NCBI GenBank assembly: GCA_029245905.1
Contig: JAQWOJ010000106.1
Location: 1-57,295 of the forward strand
Direction: 5' to 3'
DNA length: 57,295 nt
Origin: Gammaproteobacteria bacterium
GTDB lineage: Bacteria > Pseudomonadota > Gammaproteobacteria > Pseudomonadales > Pseudohongiellaceae
Positions 2-14,970 of the stretch are shown here, one piece after another. Numbering within the stretch: the stretch's first letter is position 1; every line of letters begins with the position of its first letter. The notes under the pieces were generated by a model. That model did no database searches and was not told where the DNA came from. It worked only from the letters and a program-made list of their open reading frames with translations. The position numbers and the translations under genes were made by a program.

Positions 2-181
2 AGCCTTTTTCGTATCACCATTGAAAATAATCGCTTTATTGAAAAAGAAACACTGTTCGAGGGAGTAGGACGTATTCGGGATGTCGAAAAAGGCTATAAC
101 GGCCAAATTTATTTATTGTTCGAACACAGCACAGGCGGACAAATCGTAGAAATTATTCCAAAGGATGGGCCTGAACCATGA
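2..181 (+). CDS. Glucose/sorbosone dehydrogenase-like protein, C-terminal fragment
   Basis: This open frame enters from the left edge and ends at TGA 179-181, giving about 59 residues. The segment GRIRDVEKGYNGQIYLL, followed by GGQIVEIIP near the end, matches the last beta-propeller blade of soluble glucose/sorbosone dehydrogenases (YliI/Asd family, PQQ-type six-bladed propellers, usually periplasmic). The catalytic residues and any signal peptide lie outside the window, so substrate and cofactor cannot be judged. Its stop codon overlaps the proposed start of the next gene as ATGA (178-181), so the two are probably translationally coupled. The family call is good; the function is open. Confidence 0.7.
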   Translation, partial: SLFRITIENNRFIEKETLFEGVGRIRDVEKGYNGQIYLLFEHSTGGQIVEIIPKDGPEP

Positions 182-789
182 GAAAAATCGAGCTAGACGT
201 ATTTATAGACTATGTTTGACCCTGGTGCTATCTCAATACTGTAAGTATTGAAAAACTGCAGAACAAGTATCCGGTTTCAATTCGATGGATACATTTTCCT
301 TTGCATCCAGAAACTCCAGAGGACGGAATTATTCTCGAAGAGTTATTCCCTGGCCGCGACCTCACTCCCATCAAGAAAAGAATGCAAGAGTTAATGGGGG
401 AGGCTGGTCTCCCTTATGGAGATCGCTCGCGAACCTATAACAGCCGTTTAGCGCAAGAGCTTAGCGCATGGGCAGTTCATCATCCCGGTGGAGAAGCAAT
501 ACATAACTTGCTCTACAAGGCTTATTTTGTGGAGGGCATTAACATCGGAAAGATCGACGAATTAATGAAAATTGCGCAAACGGCGGGCCTCGACCCTGAC
601 TCTGCAAAGAACATTTTAGAAACCAGGAAGTTTAAGTCTGACGTGGATAGAGATTGGCAGCATTCAAGAAGAATGGGGATAACAGGTGTTCCAACCACTT
701 GCAGCGAAGATCTTACCCTCGTTGGGTGTCGTCCATACGAAGAGTATGAACAGTTCGTTAACGATCTAATTAAACTTAAAAAATCTTAA
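178..789 (+). CDS. DsbA/FrnE-like thiol oxidoreductase, probable selenoprotein (U-P-W-C active site)
   Basis: Read from ATG 178, the frame gives 203 residues with a single in-frame TGA at 217-219 (residue 14). The context is D-Y-V-TGA-P-W-C-Y, where FrnE/DsbA-family proteins have the redox motif C-P-W-C after the first beta strand, so TGA replaces exactly the nucleophilic cysteine. The rest of the fold is present: a helical insertion, then GITGVPT with the cis-proline at residue 172. Cysteines 175 and 184 follow the cis-proline, which is unusual. A hairpin at 233-251 fits a bacterial SECIS. A caller treating TGA as stop would start at TTG 301 and lose 41 residues including the active site. 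The start is supported by the ATGA overlap with the upstream gene. Expected role: thiol-disulfide oxidation or isomerisation, or dithiol-dependent reduction. No signal peptide is visible, so a cytoplasmic site is likely. Alternatives are a nonsense-mutated pseudogene or a sequencing error of TGT/TGC. Confidence 0.8.
233..251 (+). promoter_or_regulatory. Putative bacterial SECIS hairpin
   Basis: TCAATACT (233-240) and AGTATTGA (244-251) are perfect reverse complements, giving an 8-bp stem with loop GTA (241-243). If the top pair opens, the loop is TGTAA. The loop starts 21 nt after the TGA at 217-219 and has G in its first position (second in the opened form). This fits the recalled bSECIS rules: loop 16-37 nt after UGA, a short loop, and G among its first two bases. 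The hairpin lies inside the coding frame (residues 19-25), as bacterial SECIS elements must. Confidence 0.65.
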
Positions 790-807: not shown

Positions 808-2403
808 TTACACAATAGAACTACTGCGGCCCTCCCAGAAAGGTTTGCGTAATTCTGTTTTTAAGATTTTATTGATCGGTGAAAGCGGCATCGGCTCCTT
901 TCGGAATGAAACACTAACAGGACATTTATATCCTGCGATTTGATTCTTACAAAATGTTATAAGTTCTCCTTGTGTGACATTGGTTCTCTCTTTCAGAATA
1001 ACGACTGCATGCACAGCTTCGCCCCAAGTTTCATGAGGAATTCCGATAACCGCACACTGATATATCGCGGGGTGGTTTTCCAATACATTCTCGATCTCAA
1101 TTGGATAGACGTTTTCACCTCCGGATACAATCATATCTTTTACCCGGCCCTCCAAGAAAAGAAATCCCTCGTCATCAAGATAACCTGCGTCCCCCGTATG
1201 ATACCAACCCCCTTTCAGCGCTTCTTCAGTTAACTCCGGCATTTGCCAATATTCCTTCATAATATTTGGACCTCTTGCCAAAATTTGACCAGTAGTTTCC
1301 GGTGGCAACGCTTCGTCGTTTTCATCAGCAATGATAAGGTCGACGTGTTTTACCGCACGGCCAACGGAACCCAGTTTGTTCGAATTAGGTCCTTTCAGAA
1401 CATGATATTTCGAATCAAGGCTCGTGAGTATTGGCGATGCTTCCGTCATTCCGTAAGTTTGAAAGAATTCTATCTCAGGAAACGCCTCTACAATACGACC
1501 CAACAGAGCAAGCGACAGAGGTGCTGCGCCCGACGCCAACATTTTTAAAGAAGACAAATTAAATTTTCCTAATTTAGGATAATCCAAAATCATTTGATAC
1601 ATCGTGGGAACTAGGGTTGCTGAATTAATACTGTAATCATCAATCGCTTCTAATAACTGACCGACATCAAATTTTGGCAAGATGACTGCGTGACCGCCGA
1701 GAGCAGTGCTACTAAAAACACGACTTCCCGCGGCGAGGTGAAACAAAGGTCCGACGATAAGGAAGTTCCAGTGCTTCTCCATTCGGTAAAGGGGAATTGA
1801 ACAAGTCGTATTGCATGCGCAATTAATATTACTCAAAACCACTCCCTTTGAACGGCCGGTGGTACCTCCTGTATAAAACATAACTACCGACTCGTCATTT
1901 TTACTCGGGCGCAGCTCACAATATTTTTCCTCAGAAATGACTTCGTAAAGCTCATCCTCATATGAAACCATACCGTTTGGGCACCTCGGACCCCCGAATG
2001 AAATAATCGTTTGCAGGCTTTTGCAGGCATCCCTGAGCTGGCCAGCTTGTTCGATAAAATGCTCATCAACAAGTAACACTGATGGTGCACAATCTTCAAC
2101 ACATTCAATCATTTCTCTGACCGACAAACGATAATTAATAGGTACTAGAATTGCGGCGATAAGCGCAGGAGCAAAATAACTCTCAAAACATACGTTAGAA
2201 TTTAACCCCAAGTATGCAACTCTATCACCACGCCGCACCCCAGCGCGCACTAAAAGTGTAGCAGCAGCGTGGCATCGATTTTTAGTCTCTAGCCAAGTCT
2301 GCGTTTTCCCTAAAAAAGTTATCGCTGGTTTCTGAGGCCAAGAATCCGCTGCGTCAAAAAGCAGACCGGCGATGGAAGTAATTCCATTATTTTCTGAATT
2401 CAT
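808..2403 (-). CDS. AMP-forming acyl-CoA synthetase (FadD-like)
   Basis: A 531-residue adenylate-forming ligase that would activate a carboxylic acid to its CoA thioester using ATP. The P-loop-like motif YTGGTTGRSKG is at 177-187, YGMTE at 317-321, YHTGD at 401-405, the hinge region GRVKDMIVSGGENVYP at about 419-434, and the C-terminal catalytic lysine at about 512 (SPINK). All are intact and the length is normal for medium/long-chain or aryl acyl-CoA ligases. It is the last gene of the eight-gene minus-strand operon, 21 nt after the Mct-like gene. It converges with the DsbA-like gene, whose stop is 18 nt away. It probably supplies the CoA ester consumed by the other operon products. The acid substrate cannot be read from the sequence. 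Confidence 0.85.
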   Translation of the reverse strand: MNSENNGITSIAGLLFDAADSWPQKPAITFLGKTQTWLETKNRCHAAATLLVRAGVRRGDRVAYLGLNSNVCFESYFAPALIAAILVPINYRLSVREMIECVEDCAPSVLLVDEHFIEQAGQLRDACKSLQTIISFGGPRCPNGMVSYEDELYEVISEEKYCELRPSKNDESVVMFYTGGTTGRSKGVVLSNINCACNTTCSIPLYRMEKHWNFLIVGPLFHLAAGSRVFSSTALGGHAVILPKFDVGQLLEAIDDYSINSATLVPTMYQMILDYPKLGKFNLSSLKMLASGAAPLSLALLGRIVEAFPEIEFFQTYGMTEASPILTSLDSKYHVLKGPNSNKLGSVGRAVKHVDLIIADENDEALPPETTGQILARGPNIMKEYWQMPELTEEALKGGWYHTGDAGYLDDEGFLFLEGRVKDMIVSGGENVYPIEIENVLENHPAIYQCAVIGIPHETWGEAVHAVVILKERTNVTQGELITFCKNQIAGYKCPVSVSFRKEPMPLSPINKILKTELRKPFWEGRSSSIV

Positions 2404-2424
2404 TATTTCCCTATATATTTAATT

Positions 2425-3633
2425 TTATGGGCCCGCAATGATTTTCGCGTCATGAAGCTTTCCTATTTCTAGGCTTCCTAGACACAATATTTCTGAAAGT
2501 ATTTCATCGGTATGCTGACCAAGCAGTGGAGCAGGGGCAGGTGGCTTAGAATCCAGTCCCGTAAAATAAATGGGTTGGGAGGGCACTAAATATTCTCCGA
2601 TACCCGGCTGGTCTATTTCCGAAAACAAGGGGTTCTCAGTTGAACAGTCTGGGTCATTACTTACTAAATCTGAGATACTTTGATAAGGACCCCAACAAAC
2701 CCCTCCCTCGTCCAAGGCTCTTTTGACTTCCAGAAAGCTGCTGCTGGCAAACCACAAATAAAAAATTTCTTGTATTCTCTCTCGTGCCTTAAAACGATCT
2801 CCTTCGGTTGAAAAATCAAGCTTTAATTCTTCTTCTAAAGAAACTATCTTGTCTTCAGATTGTGTTACTTTGACTAGCGCTTTCCATTGATTGGGACTGA
2901 CTCCAACCACCATGACTCTGTGGCCGTCTTTGCATTCGAAATCATGACCAAATGTTCCATAAATATGATTCGCTACTGGCTTTCGCGCTTCACTATTTAA
3001 CTGAGCCTCAGCGATAAAGCCAAGATGACCCATAGTTGCGAGAGCAACATCGGCTAATGCTAATTTAACAAATTGCCCCTCTGTCGATTGTCGACGGTGA
3101 CGCTCTGCTGCCAAGAGAGCAATAGCAATCTGCTGCCCCGCAACGACGTCCCAAGCAGGAAACGGATTATTTATTGGTTTGTCTCCGTCTCCCGTTAGGT
3201 AAGGTAAGCCGATCTTGCTGTTAACAGTATAATCTAATGCACTCCCTCCATTTCGATCACCAGTTAGGTTTACATATATAAGATCGTGCCTTTTCGCCCG
3301 CAAATTGTTATCGGATAAAAACCCCTTGGCAGGGAAATTCGTAATAAAAAGGCCGGCATCTTCACCTGAGGCGGTAATGATATTTTGAATCAGCTCACGC
3401 CCTACCGGGCTTTTCAAATCAATGGCAATAGAGCGTTTACCTTTATTGAGCGAGTGCCAATAGAGGCTTTTACCCTCATCCGTGACGGGCCATCTTCGAT
3501 AGTCAATCCCGCCGCCAATCTGGTCAAAGCGAATAACGTCCGCACCTAATTGTGATAAGGTCATCCCGCCAGAAGGTGCTGCGATAAATGCACTACCCTC
3601 TACTACTCGCATCCCTTTGAGAATTTGTTGCAA
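2425..3633 (-). CDS. mct: Family III CoA-transferase, Mct-like (2-methylfumaryl-CoA isomerase candidate)
   Basis: A 402-residue CaiB/BaiF family protein. By memory it resembles mesaconyl-C1-CoA to C4-CoA transferase (Mct) of the 3-hydroxypropionate bicycle over its whole length, including GGMTLSQLGADVIR, NKGKRSIAID, LFITNFPAKG, PAWDVVAGQQIA, LLAAERHRR and CSTENPLF. Mct moves CoA within one molecule between the two carboxylates of mesaconate. The catalytic aspartate of the family is probably D134 (ALDYTVN). The gene sits 13 nt after the MaoC gene and 21 nt before the ligase. A neighbouring Mcd-like dehydrogenase would make the matching substrate, which strengthens the reading. Alternatives are an alpha-methylacyl-CoA racemase or an intermolecular CoA-transferase. 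Confidence 0.72.
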   Translation of the reverse strand: MQQILKGMRVVEGSAFIAAPSGGMTLSQLGADVIRFDQIGGGIDYRRWPVTDEGKSLYWHSLNKGKRSIAIDLKSPVGRELIQNIITASGEDAGLFITNFPAKGFLSDNNLRAKRHDLIYVNLTGDRNGGSALDYTVNSKIGLPYLTGDGDKPINNPFPAWDVVAGQQIAIALLAAERHRRQSTEGQFVKLALADVALATMGHLGFIAEAQLNSEARKPVANHIYGTFGHDFECKDGHRVMVVGVSPNQWKALVKVTQSEDKIVSLEEELKLDFSTEGDRFKARERIQEIFYLWFASSSFLEVKRALDEGGVCWGPYQSISDLVSNDPDCSTENPLFSEIDQPGIGEYLVPSQPIYFTGLDSKPPAPAPLLGQHTDEILSEILCLGSLEIGKLHDAKIIAGP

Positions 3634-3646
3634 CTTCTTTCCCTAA

Positions 3647-4510
3647 TCAATCGCTAACGAGCAAATAACCGTTGTTAATAACAACTTTGCCTTGCTCTAG
3701 GGATCTACAACGAAACGCGATTTCATTGCCATCGCGCCAAATTTCTGTCCGAATTGTATCACCTGGATACACGGGCGCTGAAAATCTCAAGCGCATTCTT
3801 TTGAAACGACTTGGATCATAATCACAGCAAGTTTTAACTAAGGCGTGAGTCATTATCCCAACAGTACAAAGCCCGTGAAGAATCGGGGCGTTAAAACCAG
3901 CATTTCTTGCAACATTTGGCGAAGCATGAAGAGGATTAAAATCTCCCGAAAGTCGATAAAGTAAAGCTTGCTGAGGCAGCGTCGGCAGATCGCAGATAAT
4001 GTCAGGGTCACTCAAAGGTATGACGTCCGGCTTCGAGGCCGAAACTCTTCTATCTCCACCGAAACCGCCGTCACCTCTGGCAAGAATAGTCGTTCCGAGC
4101 GTACAGATGTTAGTATCAGTGTTGACGTCTCTTACTACTCGTTCCGAGTTTATTAGCGCACCTATCTTTTCACCTTTGTCCGTTACCTCGGTTATCCTTG
4201 TTGTGGCCTCAACGGTAGCGGATGTCGGAAGCGGGTTATGGAAAATGATCTCCTGCCCTGCGTGAAGAACTTTTACCCAATTAATCCCAGTGTCTTCCTC
4301 TTTAGCCCAAAACCCTGGATGAGCCATTATCACGGACTGACTTGGGAGAATTTTGAGTTCATCTTCATAAACAAATTTCAGACATTCCTCATCCAGAGGA
4401 TCAAGACCCATACCAACACCCAAGGCATAAAGGATGCAATCTTTCTCGGTGTAGCTATGGCGAATGTTACCAAAGTCACGATTTAATAATTTTTCAGGAT
4501 TGATAGTCAT
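3647..4510 (-). CDS. MaoC-family (hydratase 2) enoyl-CoA hydratase
   Basis: A 287-residue double hot-dog hydratase of the MFE-2 (peroxisomal multifunctional enzyme) type, adding water to a trans-2-enoyl-CoA to give the (R)-3-hydroxyacyl-CoA. The hydratase 2 motif SGDFNPLH has D190, N192 and H195, followed by AGFNAPILHGL. The N-terminal half carries no catalytic motif, which is normal for this fold. ATG 4508-4510 is preferred over a start at 4558, because the longer form adds 16 low-complexity residues running into the SDR gene. It lies 22 nt after the SDR gene, so together they form the two halves of a split MFE-2. With the Mct-like neighbour, mesaconyl-C4-CoA hydration is also possible. Confidence 0.85.
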   Translation of the reverse strand: MTINPEKLLNRDFGNIRHSYTEKDCILYALGVGMGLDPLDEECLKFVYEDELKILPSQSVIMAHPGFWAKEEDTGINWVKVLHAGQEIIFHNPLPTSATVEATTRITEVTDKGEKIGALINSERVVRDVNTDTNICTLGTTILARGDGGFGGDRRVSASKPDVIPLSDPDIICDLPTLPQQALLYRLSGDFNPLHASPNVARNAGFNAPILHGLCTVGIMTHALVKTCCDYDPSRFKRMRLRFSAPVYPGDTIRTEIWRDGNEIAFRCRSLEQGKVVINNGYLLVSD

Positions 4511-4532
4511 GTCTGTCTTCTTTGATTTATTT

Positions 4533-5447
4533 TTACATCGGGTCCCAGCTAAACACATCCCCTGATCGCTCCAGGGGTGTAAAATCCGAAGTAAACGCTG
4601 GAATTACTCGCCCCAGAACTGAATCCGGAGTCCAACCCTCCGCGGTATGAGCGAAGCGAACTGGTCGCGTGTGATTAAATAAAAATATTTCGTTATTGCG
4701 GACTCCAAAAATTTGACCAGAAACATCTTTTGCAGCATCGCTGCATAAAGCAATTGCCAAGGGTGCAATTTTCTCTGGCGTCATCTGTTGGATTTTTGCA
4801 ACACGCGCCTTTTCTTCGTCAGTATTTGTGGGAATAGTTCCGATCAATCTACTCCAAGCAAATGGCGCAATACAATTGGACCGAACCCGGAAGCGCCCCA
4901 TATCAAGAGCCATGGACTTAGACAACCCAACAATACCAAGCTTTGCTGCGGCATAATTTGCCTGCCCAAAATTACCAATCAATCCGGAGGTGGATGTCAT
5001 ATTGACAAAACATCCGCTAGTTTGGGCTCTAAAGTAAGTCGCTGCCGCTCTACTTACGTTGAAAGTCCCTTTCAAATGAACATTTATAACTGAATCGAAA
5101 TCTTCTTCAGTCATCTTATGAAATATTGCGTCACGCAGATTTCCTGCGTTATTAACAACGCAATCAACACGTCCAAAATAATTCACTGCAGTCTCTACAA
5201 TATCATGGGCGGCGTCCCAATCAGTAACGCTCGCATAAGAAGCAATTGCTTCGCCTCCTGCAGCCTTTATTTGCTCAACCACTTCATCTGCCGGAATAGC
5301 ATCAGATCCAGAGCCATCTTCGGAGCCACCAAGATCATTAACTACAACTTTCGCACCGTTCGCCGCCCCCATCAGAGCAATGCCACGACCAATACCGCGA
5401 CCAGCCCCAGTTACGATCAAAACTTTGTCTTGCAGTAAGGCATTCAT
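4533..5447 (-). CDS. SDR 3-hydroxyacyl-CoA dehydrogenase (MFE-2/17beta-HSD4-like)
   Basis: A 304-residue short-chain dehydrogenase expected to oxidise a (3R)-hydroxyacyl-CoA to the 3-ketoacyl-CoA with NAD+. TGAGRGIG (13-20) binds the dinucleotide, NNAG is at 99-102, and the catalytic serine is about 152 with Y165 and K169 (YAAAK). The region after the Rossmann motif (VVNDLGG, then an Asp/Ser/Gly-rich stretch) is typical of the dehydrogenase unit of peroxisomal MFE-2. The protein is longer than a basic SDR because of a C-terminal extension of about 50 residues, which this subfamily also has. It follows the Mcd-like gene by 55 nt and precedes the MaoC gene by 22 nt, consistent with consecutive steps of one oxidation cycle. 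Confidence 0.85.
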   Translation of the reverse strand: MNALLQDKVLIVTGAGRGIGRGIALMGAANGAKVVVNDLGGSEDGSGSDAIPADEVVEQIKAAGGEAIASYASVTDWDAAHDIVETAVNYFGRVDCVVNNAGNLRDAIFHKMTEEDFDSVINVHLKGTFNVSRAAATYFRAQTSGCFVNMTSTSGLIGNFGQANYAAAKLGIVGLSKSMALDMGRFRVRSNCIAPFAWSRLIGTIPTNTDEEKARVAKIQQMTPEKIAPLAIALCSDAAKDVSGQIFGVRNNEIFLFNHTRPVRFAHTAEGWTPDSVLGRVIPAFTSDFTPLERSGDVFSWDPM

Positions 5448-5502
5448 TGCTTTTTTTATCCCTCTTAAAAGATTCTTAGATTGATCCGTCTAATGCGGGC
5501 TA

Positions 5503-7182
5503 TTATGCTTTTTCTACAAGCTCTCTTGCGATTACCTTTAGTGCGAGGACTTCTTCAGCACCCTTAAAAATTGAAAGAACCCGCGCATCTACAAAATAAC
5601 GAGATACCGCACTTTCTTCAGCGTAACCCATGCCCCCATGTATCTGCATAGCCTCACGCGTCAACCATTCGGCAACATGGCAACTAAATAACTTAACCAA
5701 ACTAGCTTCCATCTGACCTTCGCCGACATCCATTAGCTTTGCCACAGCATAACTGAACTGGCGGCAAGCACTTATTGTGGCTAGCATCCGCGCCAATTTA
5801 ATTTGCGTGAGCTGAAACTGACTAAGCGCGTTATTGAACACTTGCCGGTCACAAGCGTAATTGAGTGCCTTCTCAAATGCCGCTTGCATCAGGCCTGTTG
5901 CACGCGCAGCCGTTTGAATTCGCCCTCCAGAGAATCCCGCCATGGTATAATAGAACCCTCGACCTTCACCCGCTTCGCCTCCGACTAAGTTTTCCGCTGG
6001 GACAAAGAAGTCTTCGAAAAATAAATCGAAGGAATGCATACCTCGGTATCCGAGTGTCGAGATAGCCTTACCGGTCAATGTTCCTCCGGCTTCCTGACTA
6101 TGCTCAAACTCGTGGCCTTCGAAGGAGGGCTTCTCAACCAAAAACATACTTAAGCCTTTAAACCCTAGTGAGATATCAGAATTAGTTCGGCATAAAACCA
6201 CAATTAATTCTGATCGTCCCGCAAACGTGCACCAAGTCTTGCTCCCATTAAGTATCCAACCTCCCTCGGTAACTTTTGCTTTAAGCGACACTGCCGCTAC
6301 ATCAGACCCGGTGTTAGGCTCAGTAATAGAAATCGCACAAAGTATTTCTCCTGCAGCAAGTCTTGGCAACCAGCCCAGCTGCTGGCTTTCCGTGCCGCCC
6401 GCGATAAGCGCCCGGGCCGCAATCTCTGGTCGCGTAATCAAGCTACCAGCCGCCCCTAGAGACGCACGCGAAAGTTCTTCCGTTACAACAATCATGCTTA
6501 AGCTATCTGCCCCTTCATCTGGCTGGAGGCCACCAAATCTCTCAGGTATGCATGTCCCAAAACAACCAAGATCCGCGGCAGATCTTATTATTTCTTCCGG
6601 TATATCTTTATCTTCTCGATGAATCTCTTCTGCTAAGGGCGCTACTACTTCATCAGCAAATCGAAGAAAAGTATCACGTACTAATTCTTTTTCCTCATCC
6701 AAACCAGAGGGCAATCGCAATATTTTTTCTTCAGAAATCTGTGCGCCTAATTTAGCAACGCTTTCCGCATTACAGTTTTTTAACAGCGCTCGAGCTAAAA
6801 TACTCCCTTCAAGTTCTGCAAGTTTTTCCCAATCTAGACCTGCGTCACTGGAGACAGATTTCAATCTAGTCATAACAGATTGGAATATATCGCCGGCGAA
6901 TAGCAAGGCCAAATTCTGGTGGAGCGCATCAGGCTCAGATTTTTCTGTGTGGTCTAGGAAACTATTAGCTGCTGAAATTTCTGCTTCACAAAATGCGAGT
7001 TCATAACTCGTCAATTGATGATCGTCTAATAATGCAGGGTCCAGCTTCTTATTTTTTATACAAGCTGATTTTATACTTTCCAGACCAACGTCCAAAAATT
7101 CATGGAGAGATCGAAGGAGTTGCTTAGCGCCGCCTGCACTGATCTCTGCTTCTGTGGCGTAAATTAATTTATTTACGCGCAT
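5503..7182 (-). CDS. Long acyl-CoA dehydrogenase, Mcd-like ((2S)-methylsuccinyl-CoA dehydrogenase family candidate)
   Basis: A 559-residue FAD-dependent acyl-CoA dehydrogenase. Residues 1 to about 165 form a helical N-terminal extension absent from ordinary 380-residue family members. The normal domains follow, with ITEPNTGSDVA, the WILNGSKTWCTFA strand, and IHGGMGYAEE with RYFVDARVLSIF near the end. Extension, length and C-terminal sequence fit methylsuccinyl-CoA dehydrogenase (Mcd), which makes mesaconyl-C1-CoA in the ethylmalonyl-CoA pathway. K540 lies where many relatives have the catalytic Glu of Y-E-G-T (here F-K-G-A-E-E), so the base may sit elsewhere, or activity may be changed. The Mct-like gene in the same operon would use the Mcd product. 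No crotonyl-CoA carboxylase gene is in the window. Electron acceptor: ETF, by family. Confidence 0.7.
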   Translation of the reverse strand: MRVNKLIYATEAEISAGGAKQLLRSLHEFLDVGLESIKSACIKNKKLDPALLDDHQLTSYELAFCEAEISAANSFLDHTEKSEPDALHQNLALLFAGDIFQSVMTRLKSVSSDAGLDWEKLAELEGSILARALLKNCNAESVAKLGAQISEEKILRLPSGLDEEKELVRDTFLRFADEVVAPLAEEIHREDKDIPEEIIRSAADLGCFGTCIPERFGGLQPDEGADSLSMIVVTEELSRASLGAAGSLITRPEIAARALIAGGTESQQLGWLPRLAAGEILCAISITEPNTGSDVAAVSLKAKVTEGGWILNGSKTWCTFAGRSELIVVLCRTNSDISLGFKGLSMFLVEKPSFEGHEFEHSQEAGGTLTGKAISTLGYRGMHSFDLFFEDFFVPAENLVGGEAGEGRGFYYTMAGFSGGRIQTAARATGLMQAAFEKALNYACDRQVFNNALSQFQLTQIKLARMLATISACRQFSYAVAKLMDVGEGQMEASLVKLFSCHVAEWLTREAMQIHGGMGYAEESAVSRYFVDARVLSIFKGAEEVLALKVIARELVEKA

Positions 7183-7244
7183 TTTAACGAATAGCGTTAG
7201 TAAATTTCATACTGATCCTAAAAAAACGTTTTGTTTAGCAATAT

Positions 7245-8444
7245 TTAGTCGTAAGGTCCCACAATAGAAATTGAACAGATATTCTGGTGCGGAAAGCCTC
7301 CCAAGTTATGATTTAAGCCCAACTTAGGATTCGATAGTTGCCGCGCACCAGCCCTTCCATTTAGCTGCAGATAATTTTCATAAATCATTCTTAATCCAGA
7401 TGCTCCGATCGGATGCCCAAAACACTTAAGACCCCCATCTATTTGACAAGGAGTTTTACCATCGGCATCGAAATTTCCATCCAATACGTCGTTTACTCCT
7501 TTACCTTCCTCTGCTAGCTGCAGATCTTCCATGGTAACCAACTCTGTAATCGAAAAACAATCGTGCACTTCTGTCATGGTGATTTCTTCTTTTGGCTTTC
7601 TTATACCTGCCTCATCATACGCCCTTTGCGATGCAATACGCGTAGTCTTCAAATAGGATCCATCCCAGCTGTCATGGCTCGATTCTGTGCCATTCGAAAC
7701 CGCTAATTGCAAAGCTTTTACAGACACAAGGTTTTCTTTGCCGAGAGTTTTAGCGATCTCAGGCGTAGTAACGATGGCGCAAGCAGACCCGTCACTAACC
7801 CCACAACAATCAAAAAGACCTATCGGCTCCGCAATATAAGGAGCATTCAACGCTTGATCTGAGGTAATTTCTCGTTGGAGGTGGGCTTTGGGATTTTTAA
7901 CACCGTTCGCATGGCTCTTCACAGAGACATGGGCCATTGCCCTCTTTAAATCTTCCTTGTTGTGATTGTGTTTTGCGCGATAGCCCGTGGCCAACTGAGC
8001 AAATGCTCCTGGTGCTGATAAATTGGGCCAGTACATATCGTTTTCCAAGCCCCTAGATCTTTGCGGTAGTCCCCCGTATCCAGTGTCCTTAAGCTTCTCA
8101 ACACCCAGAGCCAGAGCAATATCACAGGCCCCAGAAGCAACTGCGTAAACAGCGCCACGGAAAGCTTCAGTTCCTGTGGCGCACATGTTTTCAACTTTCG
8201 TAACAGGGATATAATTGAGGCGCAAGGCAATCGCTAAAGGCATCGCGGAAGCACCAACATTAAATGCATCTATGCCAGCGCCAAACCAAGCTGCCTCAAT
8301 TTGATTTCTCTCTACCCCCGCATCTTTAATACACTCCTCAAATGCCTCCACCATAAGATCGGAAGGGCTTGAATCCCAACGCTCACCAAATTTACTGCAA
8401 CCCATTCCTAAAATGACAACCTTATCTTTAATTCCACTCGCCAT
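7245..8444 (-). CDS. SCP2-type thiolase
   Basis: A 399-residue thiolase of the SCP-x/lipid-transfer type, without the C-terminal sterol-carrier domain. The nucleophile is C88 in ENMCATGTEAF, the histidines are H294 (VHDCF) and H344 (CFGHPIGASG), and all are intact, so it should be active in cleaving (or forming) a 3-ketoacyl-CoA. ATG 8444 gives a normal N-terminus (DKVVILGMGCSKFGE). It is preceded by the HMG-CoA-synthase-like/DUF35 fusion gene 85 nt away. Thiolases of this subfamily often need a DUF35 partner to fold or to channel substrate, and the fusion probably provides it. In eukaryotes the related SCPx thiolase handles 2-methyl-branched 3-ketoacyl-CoAs. Confidence 0.85.
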   Translation of the reverse strand: MASGIKDKVVILGMGCSKFGERWDSSPSDLMVEAFEECIKDAGVERNQIEAAWFGAGIDAFNVGASAMPLAIALRLNYIPVTKVENMCATGTEAFRGAVYAVASGACDIALALGVEKLKDTGYGGLPQRSRGLENDMYWPNLSAPGAFAQLATGYRAKHNHNKEDLKRAMAHVSVKSHANGVKNPKAHLQREITSDQALNAPYIAEPIGLFDCCGVSDGSACAIVTTPEIAKTLGKENLVSVKALQLAVSNGTESSHDSWDGSYLKTTRIASQRAYDEAGIRKPKEEITMTEVHDCFSITELVTMEDLQLAEEGKGVNDVLDGNFDADGKTPCQIDGGLKCFGHPIGASGLRMIYENYLQLNGRAGARQLSNPKLGLNHNLGGFPHQNICSISIVGPYD

Positions 8445-12118: not shown

Positions 12119-12159
12119 GAAATTTTAATATTGATAAATGTTTGCTTTACGATACGATT

Positions 12160-12176
12160 AGTCATGTTGCATGACT
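12160..12176. promoter_or_regulatory. 17-bp palindrome between divergent cysQ and yrfG
   Basis: AGTCATG (12160-12166), a 3-nt spacer TTG, then CATGACT (12170-12176) form a perfect inverted repeat in the short divergent intergenic region. It may be an operator for a dimeric regulator controlling one or both genes. No regulator gene is adjacent and the binder is not recognised. Confidence 0.3.
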
Positions 12177-12213
12177 CTCGCTGAGTTGCCAAGAAAAAAT
12201 TGATGAGCAGAAA

Positions 12214-12873
12214 ATGCCTCCTTGGTCAAAAATCGATACAATTATGTTTGATATGGATGGGACCCTATTGGATCTTCATTTCGACAACTATTTTTGGCTA
12301 GTTCTGATCCCAAAGATCTATTCTGAAAAACATGGTATCTCAAAGCAATCAGCGCTCGAGATAATTTTAACGAAAACTGAAAAAGTTCGCGGCACGTTAA
12401 AATGGTATTGTTTGGACTACTGGAGAAAAGAACTAAAGATTGATATTTTAAATTTAAAAATGAGTATCACCCATAAAATTGCGATTCGCCCTAACGCAGG
12501 ATCATTTCTGTCAGCGCTCAAGGAGAGAAATAAAAATCTACTGCTAGTTACCAATGCCCACCCAGCGAGTCTAGATATTAAAATGAAGCATGCAGCGATT
12601 TTTCACTATTTCGACCAACTGATTAGCTCTCATAACTTAAGGTTAGCGAAAGAAAACCAAGGCTTTTGGAATCAATTACAGAAGGTAGAATCCTTCGAAC
12701 CTAGCCGCACAATACTTTTTGACGATTCTTTGCCCGTTCTTTATCAAGCTCAACGAGAAGGGATTAAGTACTTGTACGGGATTCGGAAACCGGACAGTCA
12801 AAAACCAAAGATAATAAGCAGCGAGTTTCCTTTGGTCGAAGATTTTAAAGACCTTTTGCCTATAGCGATCTAA
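12214..12873 (+). CDS. yrfG: GMP/IMP 5'-nucleotidase YrfG-like (HAD superfamily)
   Basis: A 219-residue haloacid-dehalogenase-type phosphatase. Motif I FDMDGTLLD holds D13 (nucleophile) and D15. Motif II is LLVTNAHPAS, and motif IV is ILFDDSLPVL with the acidic pair. The early LHFDNYFWLVLIP and the WYCLDYWRKEL segment are characteristic of the YrfG subfamily, which in E. coli acts on GMP and IMP. Context agrees: divergent cysQ, and hslR downstream after one base. ATG 12214 is used; a nearby ATG at 12203 is out of frame. Confidence 0.85.
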   Translation: MPPWSKIDTIMFDMDGTLLDLHFDNYFWLVLIPKIYSEKHGISKQSALEIILTKTEKVRGTLKWYCLDYWRKELKIDILNLKMSITHKIAIRPNAGSFLSALKERNKNLLLVTNAHPASLDIKMKHAAIFHYFDQLISSHNLRLAKENQGFWNQLQKVESFEPSRTILFDDSLPVLYQAQREGIKYLYGIRKPDSQKPKIISSEFPLVEDFKDLLPIAI

Positions 12874-12874
12874 C

Positions 12875-13279
12875 ATGACTTCAGAGAGCAACATCATAAA
12901 TCCAAACCGCATACGTATTGACAAATGGTTGTGGGCAGCAAGATTTTATAAGACCCGTGCTATGGCAAAGCAAGCGATTGACGGGGGGAAGGTACATATT
13001 GGTGGGAGCCGACCAAAACCCAGCAAGGAAATTGAACCAGGAGAAAAGATTCGGTTGCGACAAGGGTTTGACGAAAAAACCGTAATAGTAAAAGCATTGT
13101 CGAACCAAAGGCGCGGCGCGAAAGACGCGCAGGAGCTTTATCAAGAAACTAAAGAAAGCGCCGAAAATAGAGAAAAACTTTCACAGCAGCGCAAAGCACA
13201 GCCGAAGCATTGGGCATCGCCTGAAAAACCCAATAAGAAACAAAGGCGTCAAATACAGCAATTCAAACAACAAAATTAA
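12875..13279 (+). CDS. hslR: Heat shock protein 15 (S4-domain RNA-binding HslR)
   Basis: A 134-residue protein with an S4 RNA-binding domain (RIDKWLWAARFYKTRAMAKQAI, residues about 13-35, continuing to about 75) and a basic, Gln/Lys-rich tail ending QQFKQQN. Hsp15 binds free 50S subunits that still carry a peptidyl-tRNA after an aborted round of translation, helping to recycle them after heat shock. Length and tail match E. coli HslR (133 residues). The start follows the yrfG stop by one base, so the two are coupled. Confidence 0.92.
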   Translation: MTSESNIINPNRIRIDKWLWAARFYKTRAMAKQAIDGGKVHIGGSRPKPSKEIEPGEKIRLRQGFDEKTVIVKALSNQRRGAKDAQELYQETKESAENREKLSQQRKAQPKHWASPEKPNKKQRRQIQQFKQQN

Positions 13280-13401
13280 AGAGATTCTGCAAAGGCATAA
13301 GATATTCGCAACCAAGAGGTATATTTGTCATAATGCTGCTCTCTTGCCAGTCAGCGAGCGGAAATTAGAAGAATCAAGGCACAGCTTGATTAGGGGTTAA
13401 T

Positions 13402-14970
13402 TTGACAAAGCAACTCAGTGACTGTCTGCATCGATATCGCTTTCCAAGGTTTGAAAAAAGTTGGGGAGATATACGGCGCGGAATCGAAAAAGAAAGTCTT
13501 CGCGTATCATCTGATGGCCAGCTCTCGGTAACCCCACATCCTATTGCCTTAGGATCTGCTCTTACTAATCCCTTCATTACTACAGATTTTTCTGAAGCTC
13601 TGCTCGAGCTGATTACTCCCGTCTCCGATAGCATAACTGAGTGCCTGCAGGTTCTTGGAAACATTCATCGGTTTACATCCCAAAATATCAAGGAAGGCGA
13701 GATGCTTTGGGCAACGAGTATGCCATGCCCACTCAAAAACAACGAAGAAATTCCTATCGCAAAATATGGCAACTCTAATATTGGGAAGTTAAAAACACTT
13801 TATAGGAATGGCTTGCACCACAGGTATGGAAGCACCATGCAAACTGTCGCTGGCATACACTATAATTTTTCTATGCCAGAGGCTTTCTGGAAATCGTATA
13901 AAAATATCTGTAACTTCGATGGCCCAATAAAAGAATTTCGTACAAAGAAGTATCTGCATCTCATAAGAAATTTTCATCGGAATTCGTGGCTTCTTATTTA
14001 TTTATTTGGGGCGTCTCCAGCAGCTTGCAAGAGCTTTGTAACCGGAAGAAAGCACGATCTGGAAGAATTAGACGAATCGACTTTGTTCAAACCTTATGCG
14101 ACGTGTTTACGAATGAGTAGTTTAGGATACAGAAGCGAGGCGCAAAAATCTCTATTTGTTTGCTATAACGATCTCAAGACTTATGTAGACTGCCTTTATG
14201 AAGCAATGAATACCACTTACGGAGATTATGATGCTATAAGTCAATTGCCCGGTGGTGAATATAAACAAATAAATACGAATCTTTTACAGCTCGAAAATGA
14301 ATTTTACTCAACTATTCGCCCAAAGCGAAATGTTGAACATGGCGAGAGACCCTTAGAATCATTAACCCAATCTGGCATTGAATATATAGAGGTTCGAGCT
14401 CTAGATCTTGACCCATATTCGGCACTTGGGATTAATGAGGAGCAAATTCGCTTCCTGGATGCTTTTTTATTGCATTGCCTGTTAGCAGATAGCCCTGACT
14501 GTACCGAGAGTGAATTCTTCGAAGTAGCAAATAATGTCAACAAAGTAGTTGAAAGTGGCAGGGATCCCACTTTGATATTAGAAAAGGAAAGGAGTCCTAA
14601 GAGTATGCAGGAGTGGGCTCTCGAACTGATTGAGGACATAAGCCACAGCGCCTGCCTCTTAGACAATGCGCACCAGTCAGGCTGTTACTATTCATCGGTA
14701 CTGAGCCAATCCAAAAAAATAAAAAATCCGGAGCTCACTACTTCTGGACGCATCTTAGCGGAAATGGAGAAAAACAGATTTTCTTTTTTTGAATTTTCGA
14801 TGAAGCAATCTAAACTCCATCATCAGACTTTAATTAAAGAAACATTAGATGAAAAAATATCGCACACTTTGAGTAAGACTAGCAACGACTCATTAACGGA
14901 GCAAAAGAAGATAGAAGAATTAGATAAAATAAGTTTCGACGAATTTTTACAGAACTGGAATAAAAAGTAG
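13402..14970 (+). CDS. gshA: Glutamate-cysteine ligase (class I GshA)
   Basis: A 522-residue ATP-dependent ligase making gamma-glutamylcysteine, the first step of glutathione synthesis in the cytoplasm. RRGIEKESLRV near residue 28, TDFSEALLELITP near 60, AGIHYNFSMP near 151 and YIEVRALDLDP near 330 are signature segments of the gammaproteobacterial class. Length is close to E. coli GshA (518). The start is TTG 13402; no ATG gives a complete N-terminus. The second pathway enzyme, gshB, is at 45701. The gene converges with a flavoprotein gene, with stops 14 nt apart. Confidence 0.94.
   Translation: MTKQLSDCLHRYRFPRFEKSWGDIRRGIEKESLRVSSDGQLSVTPHPIALGSALTNPFITTDFSEALLELITPVSDSITECLQVLGNIHRFTSQNIKEGEMLWATSMPCPLKNNEEIPIAKYGNSNIGKLKTLYRNGLHHRYGSTMQTVAGIHYNFSMPEAFWKSYKNICNFDGPIKEFRTKKYLHLIRNFHRNSWLLIYLFGASPAACKSFVTGRKHDLEELDESTLFKPYATCLRMSSLGYRSEAQKSLFVCYNDLKTYVDCLYEAMNTTYGDYDAISQLPGGEYKQINTNLLQLENEFYSTIRPKRNVEHGERPLESLTQSGIEYIEVRALDLDPYSALGINEEQIRFLDAFLLHCLLADSPDCTESEFFEVANNVNKVVESGRDPTLILEKERSPKSMQEWALELIEDISHSACLLDNAHQSGCYYSSVLSQSKKIKNPELTTSGRILAEMEKNRFSFFEFSMKQSKLHHQTLIKETLDEKISHTLSKTSNDSLTEQKKIEELDKISFDEFLQNWNKK

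Follow-up and report, generated by a model that had tools for sequence, protein, structure and literature searches.

The window, that is, the whole stretch of 57,295 nucleotides that was analyzed, is contig C106 of an assembly (G000) that is 86% complete. Two overlapping genes lie at its start, the second of which carries a TGA codon in frame. The features considered here, all on the plus strand, are the following.

2 to 181, plus strand: 3' end of the upstream gene, a glucose/sorbosone dehydrogenase, which overlaps the start of the selenoprotein gene as ATGA
178 to 789, plus strand: predicted selenoprotein gene encoding a 203-amino-acid FrnE/DsbA-like oxidoreductase with a U14-P-W-C17 active site (from the frame, Pfam DSBA, and the match to Deinococcus FrnE)
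217 to 219, plus strand: in-frame TGA, read as selenocysteine (U14) (homologue codons: TGA in 68 and Cys in 32 of 100 distinct sequences)
226 to 228, plus strand: Cys17, second residue of U-P-W-C and putative resolving residue (Cys in 97 of 97 close sequences)
233 to 251, plus strand: predicted bacterial SECIS hairpin, with an 8-bp stem (233-240/244-251) and a GUA loop (241-243) (from the fold, pairing, and codon constraint)
727 to 729, plus strand: Cys184, third cysteine, part of a V-G-C motif located beyond the strand downstream of the GVP motif (clade-specific in homologues)

When its TGA is read as selenocysteine (U), the frame at 178-789 encodes 203 residues, MRKIELDVFIDYV-U-PWC..., with this single TGA and no other internal stop. 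The frame had been described as open for 190 codons on both sides of the TGA; it is indeed open on both sides, but 13 codons precede the TGA and 189 follow it. The ATG at 178-180 shares bases with the stop codon of the upstream gene (TGA, 179-181), and the standard ORF listing begins instead at a TTG at position 301, yielding a 162-amino-acid product that has lost the active site. Both the ATGA overlap and this truncation had been anticipated from the sequence and were confirmed. A glucose/sorbosone dehydrogenase homologue also lies directly upstream in the nearest relative (G035, locus L175).

The downstream side of the gene differs between genomes. A short-chain dehydrogenase gene follows on the same strand, often 18 to 30 bases away, in 30 of 85 stretches (duplicates included; loci L068-L092, L095, L097, L137, and L175-L178). 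No match to this dehydrogenase was obtained in the window at 790-2403 (E of 1e-15), where an AMP-binding CoA ligase faces the selenoprotein gene instead. This ligase belongs to a minus-strand run of acyl-CoA metabolism genes at 808-8444 (CoA ligase, CoA-transferase III, MaoC hydratase, short-chain dehydrogenase, acyl-CoA dehydrogenase, and thiolase). The nine other single-TGA frames listed in the window, judged by reading, gave no sign of being Sec genes.

The active-site codon across homologues

We read the codon at position 14 in 110 loci: 30, counting the window, were taken from genome relatives, and the other 80 came from genome contigs. Before duplicates were removed, the codon was TGA in 78 loci, TGC in 20, and TGT in 12. 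Removal of 10 duplicates left 100 distinct sequences, again including the window, with TGA in 68, TGC in 20, TGT in 12, and no other codon, a Sec/Cys ratio that leans toward the near relatives because the contig loci were the best 80 of 162 confirmed and near relatives are therefore over-represented. The alignment of homologues at the TGA that the original prediction had proposed as a check thus gave only TGA or Cys codons opposite it. Since TGA stands at this one position in 68 of the 100 distinct sequences, with Cys codons in the remaining 32, the TGA is conserved far beyond chance.

The TGA form was present in 26 of 36 same-genus relatives, at 56 to 69% identity, and a close TGA form was found in none of the 21 same-order relatives, nine of which had distant matches. 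A plasmid search of 638 records returned only relatives below 60% identity, the ten listed being at ~29 to 31%. Five or more changes between Sec and Cys were counted on a quick tree, two of them as independent contrasts when well-supported branches alone were used, a count that is rough given that 27 of 97 inner branches were well supported.

These data bear on two other ways of explaining the TGA. A TGA is one base away from TGC and TGT in the genetic code, so a nonsense mutation or a sequencing error in a Cys-form gene could produce it; however, 67 other distinct sequences share the same TGA, down to ~48% identity, with a conserved hairpin behind it, and we consider such an accident very improbable. 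Even more remote is a genome-wide reassignment of TGA to Trp or Cys. The frame would be open under such a code, but TGA terminates 12 of 50 long ORFs in the window taken as genes as well as the upstream gene, Trp16 and Cys17 of the selenoprotein frame are encoded by TGG and TGC, and the genus possesses tRNA-Sec together with SelA and SelB.

A separate observation concerns G039, a sel-positive member of the same order, whose distant FrnE homologue (L180, G039:C20:3001-4800, at ~675-1175; 25% identity) has an in-frame TGA at the Trp of CPWC rather than at a Cys (C-P-TGA-C). Mutation, error, and an unusual Sec site are all conceivable explanations.

A hairpin behind the TGA

The window hairpin at 233-251, UCAAUACU-GUA-AGUAUUGA, is a perfect 8-bp version that folds as drawn. 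Taken alone, it was not exceptional against shuffles (z of -1.29, with 25 of 200 shuffles as good). A generic folding-energy test, in which the 48 bases downstream of the TGA were compared with synonymous shuffles, likewise gave a mean z of -0.75 for TGA forms (n = 67, one row with an ambiguous base having been dropped) versus -0.68 for Cys forms (n = 32, including the distant rows L041-L043). Since this test did not separate TGA from Cys forms, codon constraint and pair counts were used instead; the three distant Cys rows were left out of the Cys figures for codon constraint, pairing, and cysteine counts.

The pair counts distinguished the two groups. For the equivalent 7-bp stem, derived from the window's own fold, 474 of 476 cells were paired in the 68 TGA forms, and the stem was complete in 66 of these; in the 29 close Cys forms, 112 of 203 cells were paired and no stem was complete. 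When one arm was slid by 1 to 3 bases as a control, paired cells fell within 128 to 208 in the TGA forms and 49 to 100 in the Cys forms. Two stem pairs showed one double-sided compensatory change each (A-U to G-C and U-A to C-G), and the window stem has A-U at a pair where 64 of 68 TGA forms have G-U. In all 68 TGA forms, G occupied the second position of the five-base loop region, the loop in the window being GUA.

Codon choice over the same region was also constrained. The majority codons at +5 to +11 in the 68 TGA forms were CTC AGT ACC GTG AGT ATT GAA, and codon identity among rows with the same residue reached 0.94 to 1.00 at +5, +6, +9, and +10, compared to 0.67 to 0.79 at +7, +8, and +11. 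Over alignment columns 4 to 12 after the TGA, mean codon identity in the TGA forms was 0.778 versus 0.414 in the rest, and the best nine-column stretch elsewhere reached 0.509. In the 29 close Cys forms, the same columns gave 0.457 versus 0.496 in the rest, and the best stretch elsewhere reached 0.656. By these comparative measures of sequence, the hairpin behind the TGA is a bacterial SECIS; the eukaryotic SECIS is an element of a different kind. The original prediction of a selenoprotein is thus supported both by an alignment that places only TGA and Cys codons at the site and by a hairpin that is conserved in TGA forms and not in close Cys forms.

Selenium machinery in the genus and in the assembly

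Genes for Sec synthesis and insertion were sought in 58 genomes, comprising the window's own assembly, 36 relatives from the same genus, and 21 from the same order. Matches above cut-off were found for selA in 36 genomes, selB in 34, tRNA-Sec (selC) in 34, with the match in G042 being marginal at 49.9 bits, and selD in 46. Among the 36 genus relatives, selA was above cut-off in 32, selB in 30, and tRNA-Sec in 29, and 25 of the 26 relatives with the TGA form had at least one of selA, selB, and selC above cut-off. The remaining one, G008 (65% complete), had the TGA form and none of these three above cut-off. ARAGORN called tRNA-SeC in all 22 candidate loci checked (20 of 20 and then 2 of 2 more). 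Near or inside selB, ARAGORN found no tRNA-Sec in 13 loci and Rfam found none in 7 of those; in those genus genomes in which the two genes shared a contig, the genome-wide search placed it ~3 to 48 kb from selB. The genus therefore has tRNA-Sec, selA, selB, and selD.

Six relatives (G006, G011, G012, G014, G022, and G026) carry selA, selB, selC, and selD on one contig within ~64 to 127 kb. In G024, a single contig, selA, selB, and selC lie within ~86 kb and selD is ~2 Mb away, and selD is on a different contig from selA/selB/selC in several other relatives. The selD genes of the genus showed two further features. One match (G027:C40:116-1042) has a single in-frame TGA and is possibly a Sec-containing SelD, and most of the other genus matches above cut-off are in TGA-free open frames of ~750 to 870 amino acids, suggestive of a fusion.

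The window's own incomplete assembly gave no sel gene above cut-off. It had no match to selA and eight matches to selB, all below cut-off and probably other GTPases; its best tRNA-Sec candidate was below cut-off and is called tRNA-Ser by ARAGORN; and its sole selD match scored 60 bits against a cut-off of 125 and is probably PurM, going by a name that we infer. The window itself contains no tRNA and no Rfam match at the gathering score. Formally, this is the absence of selB and selC that the original prediction had named as evidence against itself.

The content of neighboring DNA offers another account of this absence. An 11.1-kb sel-locus block from G035 found a partial or fuller match in all 14 genus genomes tried, itself included (hand-picked from the 36 relatives), and no match in G000. 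This block also carries pyruvate phosphate dikinase, lactate permease, 2-hydroxyacid dehydrogenase, and transporter genes. A 19.9-kb sel query, run without a control, also found nothing in G000. A 15-kb selD flank from G012 matched nine other genomes tried, likewise hand-picked, and in G000 only one of its edges was found (query 12125-13678 at C75:388-1962, near the start of C75), along with a second short match at query 14025-14365. The first bases of C75 showed no obvious continuation into the neighboring gene of the relatives, and we do not claim an exact gap edge.

These observations have to be weighed against a true loss of the selenium machinery, which would leave the gene as a recent relic, with its UGA acting as a stop. 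Consistent with a loss, selA, selB, tRNA-Sec, and selD are all below cut-off or absent in an assembly that is 86% complete, and selD need not adjoin the other sel genes, given its distance from them in G024; if the window's genome were laid out like G024, two gaps would be needed because selD lies so far from selA/selB/selC there. In contrast, the 11.1-kb block with its non-selenium genes is missing from G000 and was matched at least in part in each of the 13 other genus genomes tried, six relatives keep all four sel genes close together on one contig, and the window has an intact frame and a perfect 8-bp hairpin stem with an A-U pair of its own. We regard a loss as improbable and a gap as likelier, since the non-selenium genes of the block are missing along with the sel genes. 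Our best reading, although not proven, is that one or two assembly or binning gaps explain the absent sel genes, as judged from what the contigs contain.

The protein and its known relatives

The read-through protein matched Pfam DSBA (PF01323) with an E value of 1.5e-29, and its closest solved relative by sequence is FrnE of Deinococcus radiodurans (E of 1.1e-19; PDB 5cnw/5co3). The TGA falls on the first Cys of the FrnE CPWC motif, in agreement with the claim that it occupies the position of the nucleophilic Cys. The predicted fold (pLDDT of 94.9) also matched Deinococcus FrnE best (5co3, TM of 0.90 on the query, E of 1.5e-15), such that sequence and fold both support the earlier assignment to DsbA/FrnE-like oxidoreductases. 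The Pro of the GVP motif (P172) was conserved in 97 of 97 close sequences. A DsbG-like selenoprotein model (NCBIfam NF041057) was considered and rejected, as it scored 22.8 bits, far below its cut-off of 190. The short N terminus and membership in the FrnE family suggest that the protein is probably cytoplasmic.

Although alike in sequence and fold, the window protein differs from Deinococcus FrnE in having Sec in place of the first Cys and in lacking the C-terminal CX4C tail, its only cysteines besides U14 being Cys17, Cys175, and Cys184. In excerpts of PMC8945050, the CX4C tail of D. radiodurans FrnE (DrFrnE) is described as helping to regenerate the active site and as absent from some FrnE proteins. 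In the sequences compared here, position 184 was Cys in 52 of 68 TGA forms versus 0 of 29 close Cys forms. This residue follows the V-G of what we take to be the loop that borders the active site in thioredoxin. We nevertheless rejected a Sec-linked Cys184, since only three changes were seen on the tree and independent pairs are too few for a test; Cys184 is a clade trait, and its dependence on Sec is unsupported. That Cys184, in the loop after the GVP strand, is in this genus a third redox residue replacing the CX4C of DrFrnE, with the short-chain dehydrogenase found downstream in many relatives, but not in the window, as the partner or electron source of the enzyme, is a speculative idea that we think unlikely to be right.

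Given that a SECIS is conserved behind the UGA and that relatives own tRNA-Sec, SelA, SelB, and SelD, we read the UGA as a Sec codon. On the strength of these sequence comparisons, the gene very probably encodes a Sec-containing FrnE-type thiol/disulfide oxidoreductase, probably cytoplasmic, in which the UGA at 217-219 is decoded as Sec. SelB would bring Sec-tRNA to this UGA, so that Sec would take the place of the nucleophilic, N-terminal Cys in CPWC, a change that may raise reactivity, as the original prediction proposed. Its selenolate would then attack a substrate disulfide, and Cys17 would resolve the mixed selenenylsulfide. The enzyme would most likely serve as a reductase or isomerase of oxidized cytoplasmic proteins.

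Proteins answering to this description have been reported before, as excerpts of several surveys indicate. A survey of the Sargasso Sea (2005) lists a "DsbA-like protein" (COG2761, UXXC, nine sequences) with a SECIS drawn for one member, and the GOS survey (2008) lists "DsbA 1" (pfam01323, UxxC, 63 sequences) as commoner in marine samples. Four DsbA-like selenoproteins appear in a 2006 survey and 45, from 41 organisms, in a 2016 survey, and a 2026 review names a "DsbA-like protein form 1" (PF01323, UxxC). The statement in the original prediction that marine selenoproteome surveys include DsbA-like proteins agrees with the Sargasso Sea and GOS excerpts; the label "unannotatable" was overstated, since these same excerpts already describe a UxxC DsbA-like family. 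Judged by such descriptions, the window protein and the DsbA-like selenoprotein (COG2761/PF01323) share the Pfam family, UxxC, and Cys homologues. To these, the present analysis adds a gammaproteobacterial genus with sel genes, a SECIS test across the family, and a third Cys specific to one clade. A Sec-containing oxidoreductase (FrnE) is also described in Mamiellophyceae green algae in an excerpt of PMC6627142; as described there, it is likewise a Sec-containing FrnE, but a eukaryotic one. Literature searches on selenocysteine and COG2761 turned up the 2005 paper alone, those on Pseudohongiella and selenocysteine turned up nothing, and those on selenoprotein and FrnE turned up the algal paper but none on bacterial selenoproteomes.

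The gene is a further member of a selenoprotein family that is already known from marine bacteria, and it leaves the understanding of the DsbA-like selenoprotein family unchanged. It does provide a clean case of truncation by standard calling, with the active site lost from the called product, and this in most of the genomes sampled from one marine-type genus. Moreover, the 68 Sec and 29 close Cys sequences are well suited to a study of what a disulfide reductase gains from selenium.
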